Assembly: GCA_029881805.1 (NCBI GenBank)
Contig: JAOULW010000009.1
Span: 1-64,000, forward strand
Source: Candidatus Bathyarchaeota archaeon
Lineage (GTDB): Archaea > Thermoproteota > Bathyarchaeia > Bathyarchaeales > Bathycorpusculaceae
Length of the DNA stretch: 64,000 nt
Direction of reading: 5' to 3'
Under the pieces are notes generated by a model. The model made no database searches. It had not been told where the DNA came from and saw only the letters and a list, made by a program, of their open reading frames with translations. Position 1 is the first letter of the stretch; every line of letters starts with the position of its first letter. Shown here in pieces: positions 61,153-63,959 of this stretch. The translations under genes and the position numbers were made by a program.

Positions 61153-61190
61153 GTGGGGTCGTATAGGTTGGAGCCCACGTTTGAACCCTC
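61153..61190 (+). repeat. Direct repeat copy 1 with hairpin and T-arm-like motif
   Basis: This 38-base element matches 62530-62567 at 33 of 38 positions. It contains GTGGG and CCCAC arms and ends GTTTGAACCCTC, whose complement GAGGGTTCAAAC resembles a tRNA T-arm. Read on the minus strand its start becomes CGACCCCAC, followed by CA outside the repeat, like a tRNA 3' end with CCA. No complete tRNA can be folded. Confidence 0.5.
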
Positions 61191-61272: not shown

Positions 61273-61818
61273 TCAAGAACTGACTTCTCTTTCTTCCTTT
61301 GATCGCTTTTGATAGTAGGATTTAAATAGATTGTATCTCTGCAGGCGTGGCCAACCAGTCTTTGCATAGATTAGCTTTTCCGGGTTTTTCTGTAGCCAGC
61401 TCATCATGTGGAAGAAGCTCTTTGCCTTTTTTTCATCTCTCTCTTCTACTGGCTCATAACCCAAGTTTCTGATTTCGTCAAGGTATGCTATCTCCGTAAG
61501 CCTCTGTGGTTCCCCGGTGACCGTGATTCTATCAACCTGATTGTCGCCATACATCTCTTTCAAACCGTTTACAGCTTCGTCGAAGATATACCCTCTGCAG
61601 ACTTGAATCTGTTCATCTTTCTTAAGTTCAAGTTTACCCAGTAGTTGAAACACGACTTTCGAAGCCTGTCTCAGATACTCTTTTGATTGGAATCGCGGGT
61701 ATCTGAAATATTTGACATCCAAGATATCGTATCTGAATTCCTGAGTCTCACAGCGGAAGGCACCTATGACCACTCCAAAAAGTAGGTCACCTACGCCGGC
61801 ATCATCAACAATTATCGT
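61273..61818 (-). CDS. Unknown conserved-looking protein with DDAGVGD motif, apparent ACG start
   Basis: A protein of about 181 residues, not recognised. The N-terminus IIVDDAGVGDLLFGVVIGAF is a buried strand with two acidic residues followed by a glycine turn. Later come FRYDILDVKYF, QVCRGYIFDEAV, ITVTGEPQRLTEIAYLDEIR and SFFHMMSWLQKNP. Conserved-looking Asp/Glu/Arg/His positions suggest an enzyme or nucleotide-binding fold. The first canonical start (GTG 61773) would drop the first 15 residues; the frame opens after TAA with CTG ACG ATA. It lies between two 38-base direct repeats. Confidence 0.65.
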   Translation of the reverse strand, partial: TIIVDDAGVGDLLFGVVIGAFRCETQEFRYDILDVKYFRYPRFQSKEYLRQASKVVFQLLGKLELKKDEQIQVCRGYIFDEAVNGLKEMYGDNQVDRITVTGEPQRLTEIAYLDEIRNLGYEPVEERDEKKAKSFFHMMSWLQKNPEKLIYAKTGWPRLQRYNLFKSYYQKRSKEEREVSS

Positions 61819-61900: not shown

Positions 61901-62086
61901 TTATTTCTCGAATCTCTTATTCTGCTGGATTTTTGAAGGAGTCAAAAATTCTTTCATTTCATTGTAGAGGTATTCGAAGGAGTCAAATGCATCTCGAATA
62001 TACTTTTGTCTCATATATAAGACCCGAGGCTTCATCTTTTCCAAGATGCCAGTGATAAAGATAAGGTCGTAGACCAGATGGGACAA
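61901..62086 (-). CDS. Possible small hypothetical protein (61 aa)
   Basis: A TTG-started frame of 61 residues (LEKMKPRVLYMRQKYIRDAF and a basic end) directly after an in-frame TGA. It is helical and charged with no recognised domain. It lies between the two 38-base repeats and may be chance or a remnant. Confidence 0.25.
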   Translation of the reverse strand: MSHLVYDLIFITGILEKMKPRVLYMRQKYIRDAFDSFEYLYNEMKEFLTPSKIQQNKRFEK

Positions 62087-62087
62087 A

Positions 62088-62120
62088 TGGAGACATCACC
62101 CGCAAATCCCTATTTTTTCT
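62088..62120. repeat. Sequence similar to the stretch beside the integrase remnant
   Basis: This segment matches 24131-24163 at about 25 of 30 positions, sharing CCCGCAAA and a following T-run. Both contain the 10-mer ATCNCCCGCA, which also occurs at 62617 and 63918. Confidence 0.4.
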
Positions 62121-62527
62121 ATTTCATGGGCCTAAATTGGTGAAAAGTCTTTTAAGACTTTCAAAGTGTAATATTATCAATAACAACTATTGCTTCGTGG
62201 AGATTAGTGTATGCCCTCATTGAAGAAAAAGAATATTCAAAAGAAGAAAAAACATTCGGAAAAAATTGGGAAATAACACAGATTTCATATTTTGTGTCCA
62301 TGCTGGTTTTCGTCGTTCATCTGCTACACCGTCAACGGGGTTAACCTATTCAGAAAACGGAAGATAGCAAACGCAGACTTAGACATGATGCTGATGACCC
62401 GGAAGGACTTAAACCTAAATAAGAGTGGGCGAGCATGCTCTCACTGGGCGAAAGCAAAAACTAGCTAAATCGCCACTATTTCAACAAATACTCGTCGAAA
62501 CAATCTTTATTTCACGAAATAGGCTAC
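62121..62527. other. Intergenic stretch with a short near-palindrome
   Basis: No supported gene lies here. AAAGTCTT-TT-AAGACTTT (62144-62161) is an 8-bp inverted repeat around two bases, a possible regulator site or hairpin. A lysine-rich chance frame (62211-62276) and GAGCATGCTC near 62430 were noted but carry no clear meaning. Confidence 0.4.
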
Positions 62528-62629
62528 TAGTGGGATCATATAGGTCAGTGCCCACGTTTGAACCCTCACAGAACCAGCCAAACCCGTGACCTTAGGACGA
62601 CAGGGGTTCAAACCCCATCCCCCGCACTA
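62528..62629 (+). repeat. Structured element: direct repeat copy 2 nested in paired arms
   Basis: The 38-base repeat copy occupies 62530-62567. TAGTGGGAT (62528-62536) can pair with ATCCC and CACTA at 62617-62629, bulging CCG. Inside, GTTTGAACCC (62556-62565) pairs perfectly with GGGTTCAAAC (62604-62613). The result is a two-tier fold of about 102 bases. The right arm resembles a tRNA T-arm and acceptor end, but no full tRNA forms. Confidence 0.45.
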
Positions 62630-62816
62630 CGGTCAAAGATTTTCTTTTTGGCGGCTTTTTGACGCTATTTTGGTGTTTGTGCCTGCTGGTTATTGCTCAG
62701 ATGCCATCGACTTTGAAGAACACGTTTATGGAACCTTAGCAACCGCTGATTTCAGTAGTCTGCTTATAAGCAAAAGTGCCGCACTATTGTCTTGGGTGAG
62801 AGTTGTGAGCAGAGAG

Positions 62817-63827
62817 ATGTCTCCAACTTCTGAACCAAAAACTATCAAGAAGCTCGCAACGGCAGTTTATCCATCCTTTGCGATGCTCGCAGGGATGCAG
62901 CTCGATGTGTTTACGCCGCTTAAAAATGGACCAATGAGCGCCGAACAGATTGCGGACGCAATCGGTGTCAAACCTTCTAAACTAAAGCCGCTTCTTTATG
63001 CCCTTGTAGCCGCTGAGTTACTGACTGTGGAAGGGAACCGTTTCTCCAACACAGATGAAGCCAACCTTTTTTTGGTCCGAGACAACCCGTCATACGTGGG
63101 GGACCATGTACACCTCAATCCTTTTCTAAACCTCTGGATCTGGAGGGCCACACTCAAGACTGCGGAGTCAATTCGAACGGGAATACCGCAAGAGAAGTTT
63201 GATGAATCTGAAAAGTCGGAAGAAGAATTGGAATCTCTCTTTCGTGGCACACGTCCCATTGCAGTTAGAGCAGGTCGCGAACTTGTGGCAAGGTATAACT
63301 TCTCTTCTTACCGTACGCTCTTGGATGTTGGCGGTGGCTCAGGCGGACTCGCCGTCGCTATAATTGAGGCTTGTCCTTATATTCAAGCCACTGTGGTAGA
63401 CCTCCCATCGGTTACGCCTATCACGCGACGCCTGATAGCAGAAGCCGGTGCCGCAGACCGAATTCAGATAATGCCCGCCGATGTGGTTCGCGGCCCCTTG
63501 ACAGGCGCTTTTGACGTCGCAGTCTTGAGGGCGTTTATCCAAGTGCTCTGGCCCAATGATGCACGTGACGCACTCAAAAACGTCAGCGCAGTCATCAATC
63601 CAGGTGGCGCAATATACATTCTCGGTCACATTCTGGACAACTCACGAATCTCACCCCTCGAAGAGGTGGGGCATAATTTAGCCTCTGTAAACGCCTATGA
63701 AAGAGTCCCTGCAGATTACACGGAGCAAGAGCAGAAGGACTGGCTGACTGAGGCTGGCTTTGAGCAGATTGAACGCACTACGCTACCGAATGGGGACGGC
63801 GTTATGACCGCCAAAAAGCCTATGTAG
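62817..63827 (+). CDS. O-methyltransferase, acetylserotonin/hydroxyneurosporene-type
   Basis: A 336-residue class I methyltransferase with an N-terminal winged-helix dimerisation domain (MLAGMQLDVFTPLKNGPMSA and IADAIGVKPSKLKPLLYALV) and a SAM-binding core: LLDVGGGSGGLAVAIIEACP, TVVDLPSVTP, VLRAFIQVLWPNDARDALKN and IYILGHILDN. It methylates a small-molecule hydroxyl; the substrate is unknown. ATG 62817 fits the usual family length; GTG 62805 is possible and the frame runs further upstream. GC-ending codons are more frequent than in neighbouring genes, which suggests recent transfer. T-arm-like hairpins bracket it. Confidence 0.88.
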   Translation: MSPTSEPKTIKKLATAVYPSFAMLAGMQLDVFTPLKNGPMSAEQIADAIGVKPSKLKPLLYALVAAELLTVEGNRFSNTDEANLFLVRDNPSYVGDHVHLNPFLNLWIWRATLKTAESIRTGIPQEKFDESEKSEEELESLFRGTRPIAVRAGRELVARYNFSSYRTLLDVGGGSGGLAVAIIEACPYIQATVVDLPSVTPITRRLIAEAGAADRIQIMPADVVRGPLTGAFDVAVLRAFIQVLWPNDARDALKNVSAVINPGGAIYILGHILDNSRISPLEEVGHNLASVNAYERVPADYTEQEQKDWLTEAGFEQIERTTLPNGDGVMTAKKPM

Positions 63828-63901
63828 CGCATGGTATTGGAGCAAGTATTAGAAACTCACAAATGCGTAAGATTAATGCTCTCTTCGATAAGGTTCAGAT
63901 T

Positions 63902-63959
63902 CCGAGATTTGAACCTAATCCCCCGCACTGAAAGTCGAGATTAGGGTTTAAATTCTCGG
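63902..63959. repeat. Long imperfect inverted repeat with T-arm-like arms
   Basis: CCGAGATTTGAACCTAATC (63902-63920) pairs with 63939-63959 over 18 of 19 positions, allowing two single-base bulges, with an 18-base loop. Both arms contain T-arm-like sequence. The left arm and loop share ATCCCCCGCACT with the element at 62617-62628, upstream of the methyltransferase. Confidence 0.5.

Follow-up and report, generated by a model that had tools for sequence, protein, structure and literature searches.

The DNA analysed here (the window, 64,000 nucleotides of contig 5 of this genome) carries near its end an O-methyltransferase gene that sits inside an array at 61-66 kb, between two plus-strand ends of tRNA-Leu type. 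ARAGORN reported no intact tRNA in the 64-kb window, and an Rfam scan of 60.8-64.0 kb at E up to 10 returned only three chance matches. The features considered are as follows, those of the window first.

61153..61190, minus strand: 38-nt tRNA-Pro-like 3′ fragment, copy 1, ending in CGACCCCACCA (pattern search; loose tRNA-Pro alignment)
61273..61773, minus strand: 166-aa ORF between the fragment copies, without a Pfam match
62081..62124, minus strand: constant block, the tRNA part after it decayed (match to covariance model R1 at 62081-62119, E=1.1e-6)
62211..62276, plus strand: putative very basic ORF of 21 codons, MPSLKKKNIQKKKKHSEKIGK, with a promoter-like stretch in front (read from the alignment with genome G082)
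62396..62413, minus strand: decayed tRNA-Asn-like 3′ fragment (alignment; blastn homology with G082 ends at 62413)
62530..62567, minus strand: 38-nt tRNA-Pro-like 3′ fragment, copy 2 (pattern search)
62604..62630, plus strand: tRNA-Leu(TAG) 3′ fragment, upstream flank of the methyltransferase (27/27 identity)
62817..63827, plus strand: O-methyltransferase ORF with Dimerisation and Methyltransf_2 domains (Pfam; likely start ATG at 62817, by eye)
63902..63959, plus strand: hairpin enclosing a TTTAAATTCTCGG stretch and, at 63912-63929, the decayed 3′ end of a tRNA-Leu-like sequence; flanks the methyltransferase on its downstream side (repeat, folding)
G000:C22:75580-76242, C35:12182-12646 and C5:70250-70957 (G000 being this genome): recombinase ORFs beside tRNA genes, on their 5′ side

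The sequence-only reading of this DNA had credited the methyltransferase with a codon bias unlike that of its neighbours, and our measurements agree: the gene is the most deviant of 67 contig ORFs (codon deviation z -2.9, GC3 z 2.7), and its GC content is 51.3% vs 42.3% for the contig. Searches with query sequences spanning 62586- or 62808-63824 place it in 2 of the 162 genomes of the order at E<=1e-40, its own included, and the sole relative, at 75% identity, lies in G048, a member of another family.

The same reading had placed T-arm-like hairpins on both sides of the gene. The direct repeat that links them (62611-62628 and 63912-63929) is present at 16/18 positions, a level of agreement reached in 0 of 300 dinucleotide shuffles of both flanks, and ATCCCCCGCACT, with up to one mismatch allowed, occurs twice in the window vs 0.21 expected. 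For the upstream piece the term T-arm-like proved apt, as 62604-62630 matches G000:C24:12499-12525 at 27/27 bases, spanning the 3′ end of a tRNA-Leu(TAG) gene (ARAGORN, G000:C24:12437-12521) and a few bases after it; 63912-63929 is a decayed relative (16/18) of this tRNA-Leu-type end. The 3′ ends of tRNA-Leu genes are targets of casposons, so a casposon target was among the readings considered. Downstream, the proposed inverted repeat at 63902-63959 folds beyond chance (z -2.69, with 1 of 200 shuffles equally good). The two-tier structure claimed upstream (62528-62629) does not hold up as a fold, scoring no better than shuffles (z -0.87, 28 of 200 equally good). It consists of the minus-strand 38-nt copy at 62530-62567 facing the plus-strand tRNA-Leu end at 62604-62630, and the complementarity arises because these two tRNA-like pieces stand in opposite orientation. 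Stretches of the CCGAGAATTTAAA / TTTAAATTCTCGG type are found at 63902-63959 and, past the window end, at 65832-66196 of contig 5, and recur near tRNA-Leu on C24 and in G020 along with AAACCTAACCCCCCGCACT; they are perhaps a promoter-like motif linked to tRNA-Leu ends.

Bracketing of a single compositionally foreign gene by two ends in direct orientation, within a region made of similar units, is not what would be expected if the methyltransferase had arrived by ordinary horizontal transfer and the flanking tRNA-Leu-like ends were unrelated scars in a hypervariable region. We nevertheless regard such a transfer as quite possible, though not probable, given that neither end carries the constant block and that the two ends, which share 16/18, yet seem to be of different age (27/27 vs decayed). 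In addition, homology with G048 is restricted to the coding sequence (62831-63805). The G048 homologue lacks the exact hairpins; upstream of it there are a copy of the constant block and the 3′ end of a different kind of tRNA, and nothing similar was seen on the downstream side. The check set by the sequence-only reading, whether other genomes with this methyltransferase keep related hairpins, thus comes out mixed.

The 38-nt element occurs three times in the genome, at contig positions 61153, 62530 and about 65998, the last past the window end. All three copies fall within 5 kb in a single orientation, and a reversed-pattern control gave 0. Read in its sense orientation (the minus strand here), the element ends in CGACCCCACCA as tRNA-Pro does, the alignment to tRNA-Pro being loose. 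At up to three mismatches it is found in 9 of the 162 genomes of the order, exact matches occur in Candidatus Bathyarchaeota PFL10 and Bathyarchaeia Yes46-05, and GCGGGAGATATCTCCATTTGTC or a near variant stands ahead of it in G082 and G034. A viral or plasmid sequence was ruled out as its identity, as there were 0 exact matches in viral_contigs and no match in plasmids. As for an IS end or a remnant of a TnpB guide RNA, no transposase was recognised by eye among the ORFs beside the 38-nt copies.

Comparison with G082, which belongs to another genus, indicates how this part of the region is composed. In the orientation of its tRNA-Asn, G082 carries a tRNA-Asn gene, a block with a tRNA-Asn end, a segment with the small ORF, and a block with the 38-nt end. 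Window positions 62081-62413 are homologous to the small-ORF segment at 82%, up to the decayed tRNA-Asn piece, so that the cassette proposed at 61.2-62.5 kb has a counterpart elsewhere. The 21-codon ORF and the region upstream of it are kept at about 82% DNA identity, the block at 62081..62124 is orthologous to G082 C266:233-292, and the tRNA-Asn end corresponding to 62396..62413 is still recognisable there. Upstream of the minus-strand fragments at 61-66 kb stands a tRNA-Pro (contig 70097-70213, minus), and on its far side lies a recombinase ORF (70250-70960) assigned to PF00589 by Pfam.

The constant block AAAAAAGGGGGTTTGCGGGTGATATCTCCACT has one copy in the methyltransferase region and elsewhere usually precedes the T-arm and 3′ end of various tRNAs. 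A T-arm motif scan of 471 kb of the genome gave 26 sites vs 0-6 in ten shuffled sets, a count in which some sites lie inside tRNA genes and for which the tRNA table is incomplete (for example, the tRNA-Pro at contig 70108). Several T-arm sites outside tRNA genes are preceded by one common block of 22 bases. A profile built from 16 copies (A1) recovered 28 block-bearing copies in 861.5 kb of genome under a permissive cut-off (E up to 0.7), while a profile built from 25 copies (A2) gave 23 matches in the 861.5-kb sample at E<=0.01, all outside tRNA genes, and 0 in three shuffled sets. With R1, a covariance model based on sequence only, the whole genome contains at least 46 copies of block plus tRNA end, which is a lower bound because 150 of 470 candidates were scored. 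R1 matches are present in 165 of 250 Bathyarchaeia genomes and, at a stricter cut-off, in 45 of 300 genomes of the phylum, 12 of the 45 being labelled outside the class. A recognisable tRNA 3′ fragment accompanies 92 distinct copies. In the sample, tRNA 3′ fragments outnumber 5′ fragments 6 vs 2 (with 5 or fewer mismatches allowed in 28, and 0 in the reversed control), counts too small to carry much weight.

The block has the form (A)6GGGGGTTTGCGGGTGATATCTCCACT. Its consensus over 120 distinct copies runs from an A-rich and a G-rich stretch through TTT to GCGGG(T/A)GATATCTCCACT, with the commonest base at 61-98% per position, and is followed on the 3′ side by about 7-8 variable bases, a T-arm and the acceptor strands of many tRNA types. 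A same-strand stop codon stands no more than 100 bases ahead of many copies, and a few copies pair well, such as TGTGGAG with CTCCACA at C24:176937, as might be expected if block and tRNA end formed a tRNA-like RNA or an mRNA 3′ element, acting after genes as a processing signal or terminator. We consider this highly improbable. No covariation links the 5′ block to the acceptor strand in a set of 70 copies, in which 3.77 of 7 positions pair vs 3.91 when strands are shuffled among copies. An mRNA 3′ element is rejected because gene orientation relative to the element varies, being opposite in G085:C94 and G025:C43 and the same in G017:C69. A mini-tRNA (tRNA-like minihelix) was ruled out as well, since acceptor pairing is not maintained by covariation (n=70). 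That the hairpins flanking the methyltransferase are functional RNA structures is supported neither by the upstream folding nor by the general element, in which block and acceptor do not covary.

Most copies of the element fall between genes (24 of 28, in sequence of which ORFs of at least 90 aa cover 85%), and they tend to lie in co-oriented series. Among the 294 matches listed, neighbours within 10 kb share an orientation in 48 cases vs 3 opposed (3/51 breaks). Three one-contig genomes, with 86 matches, contain 40 neighbour pairs vs 12.3 expected, co-oriented in 32 cases vs 8 (8/40 breaks). G085 and G025 together have five stretches with 4-6 copies each, all in one direction within a stretch, and often a single gene separates successive copies in G085:C94, G025:C43 and G017:C69. 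A tRNA-derived transposable repeat of MITE or SINE type, scattering on its own, would fit the high copy number, the sporadic loss and decay and the several subfamilies. Independent hops would not be expected to leave neighbours co-oriented, to change the tRNA part with the local tRNA, or to leave different cargo between tRNA and element at an orthologous site, and we think this origin very unlikely.

The link between arrays and local tRNAs is visible in individual cases. In G017, copies run downstream from a tRNA-Leu(TAG) and three fragments look Leu-like, this tRNA ranking 1, 5 and 4 of 71 tRNA ends for them; in the Ala-array of G085 the local tRNA-Ala ranks 6th and 2nd for its two copies. 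The best match of a fragment among the 71 tRNA ends is the same-strand upstream tRNA (within 20 kb, in the sequence examined) in 4 of 11 cases, and this tRNA is in the top 3 in 5 of 11; control tRNAs gave 0 of 8. In a sample from the genome studied here, only 2 of 6 cases had their nearest upstream tRNA as top match. For 14 of the 86 matches, vs 7.5 expected, a same-strand tRNA lies upstream within 10 kb (P 0.046), an excess that is no longer significant at a distance of 5 or 15 kb, and most arrays have no tRNA nearby. An anchoring of every array at a tRNA is supported only weakly. Recombinases of PF00589, among them by Pfam the contig-5 ORF and one in G029, adjoin tRNAs or fragments; most units have none. 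Three of the five ORFs related to the contig-5 recombinase directly adjoin tRNA genes, at the 5′ side.

Cargo differs among relatives at one orthologous locus, compared in three genomes. G085, G086 and G025, labelled as one genus (g26), share an orthologous tRNA-Ala(TGC) beside an IlvD-like gene (by eye). G025 ceases to be homologous to the other two at the tRNA-Ala 3′ end. Between G085 and G086 the homology breaks off about 115-125 bases beyond that end, after covering the final bases of the recombinase ORF of G085. The cargo that follows is a 112-aa ORF in G025, an SDR-like gene in G086, and a recombinase with a 165-aa ORF in G085 (names by eye), this recombinase being a Phage_integrase-like ORF that we take, by eye, for a tyrosine recombinase. 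In each genome a block copy comes after the cargo, and beyond it G085 and G086 have a 216-aa ORF in common.

Taken together, these observations argue that the repeats are attachment-site scars left by small elements that inserted serially at the 3′ ends of tRNAs, a reading to which we assign a probability of about 70%. Small integrative elements would use the T-arm/acceptor portion at the 3′ end of a tRNA gene as their place of recombination; integration would rebuild the tRNA and leave the displaced 3′ fragment at the far end of the element, where the adjoining constant block may represent either the terminus of the element itself or an arm site for the integrase. Successive rounds would build co-oriented arrays in which most units have one or few genes and lack a recombinase. 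The 61-66 kb region would then be an old array starting from the tRNA-Pro at contig 70097-70213 (minus), with the methyltransferase as one of its units between tRNA-Leu-type ends. The family occurs across the class, and in it a constant DNA tag fused to a tRNA end seems to mark successive insertions of small foreign genes. The sequence identities, the family, its co-orientation and the differing cargo at one orthologous tRNA are observed, while the recombination, the role of the block, the enzyme and the route of the methyltransferase are inferred; neither circular forms nor an excised site nor recombinase activity was observed.

For the methyltransferase, its composition, its presence in 2/162 genomes, the direct tRNA-Leu-type ends on both sides and the similar units across the class lead us to read it as a foreign unit. 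It is probably one unit of the tRNA-scar family, and may have moved by that route; because its flanks lack the block, its own mobility is the least certain step, and no intact tRNA-Leu adjoins them. The second cassette of the sequence-only reading is thus supported as a foreign unit between tRNA-derived repeats, beside the unit at 61.2-62.5 kb.

A more specific version, which we hold tentatively and consider rather unlikely, is an integron-like cassette system in Bathyarchaeia, in which a trans-acting tyrosine recombinase would read the constant block and the T-arm common to all tRNAs, and single-gene cassettes would be stored behind many tRNA genes and exchanged between lineages. Integron attC and attI sites have the form RYYYAAC ... 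GTTRRRY, a pattern not seen by eye in the 120-copy consensus.

As far as the available parts of these papers go, integration at tRNA 3′ ends, tandem accretion and integrase-less units are already known (PMC3146451, PMC6563490, PMC4383910), as are integrons in archaea (PMC9668308) and archaeal tyrosine recombinases (PMC8371274), and the comparisons below carry the same limit. The tRNA/tmRNA genomic islands of the Islander definition (PMC4383910) likewise have a regenerated tRNA at one end and a displaced fragment at the other, whereas here there are dozens of fragments per genome, many of them away from tRNAs, and a constant block common to tRNA types and genera. In Dehalococcoides, the ssrA islands (PMC3146451), which show accretion and include cis-mobilizable units, resemble our arrays in their tandem units between direct repeats of an RNA-gene 3′ end, many without an integration module; they use one target gene, a serine recombinase and a 20-bp repeat, in contrast to the several tRNAs, nearby tyrosine recombinases and mostly small units seen here. 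Integrated elements of Thaumarchaeota (PMC6563490) share archaeal tRNA 3′-end integration (39/68 elements), and neither a constant block nor arrays of single-gene units were found described in the accessible portion of that source. Archaeal integrons (PMC9668308) are alike in that their gene units stand in co-oriented arrays separated by repeated sites, the recombinase usually being absent, but they have attC and IntI, where the present arrays have tRNA 3′ ends and no attC-type site. Tycheposons (via PMC10872708) are similarly tRNA-bordered cargo elements linked to a tyrosine recombinase; they are bacterial and 4-200 kb long, unlike the kilobase units with a common short block described here. 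Within the partly accessible open literature (preprints and most subscription papers lying outside this scope), we found no description of a class-wide constant block with single-gene units and several tRNA types per genome, nor any account of this block or these arrays in Bathyarchaeia.

If the attachment-scar reading is correct, the entry points of foreign genes in a large class of uncultured archaea are marked to the base by a short DNA tag, and part of the variable gene content of Bathyarchaeia would be explained. Cassette genes could be listed automatically and the recombination site would be directly testable; T-arm fragments in Bathyarchaeia genomes would, as a caution, not be tRNA genes.

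Two further observations concern 5′ portions of tRNAs. At G000:C35:10536-10606, a plus-strand tRNA-Glu 5′ fragment continues into a constant-block copy in reverse orientation, and an intact tRNA-Glu lies 2.2 kb past it with a recombinase ORF between; this is possibly an integration at the 5′ side of a tRNA. At G000:C24:11331, outside the tRNA list, the opening 28 bases of the tRNA at C24:169-242 recur without a mismatch.
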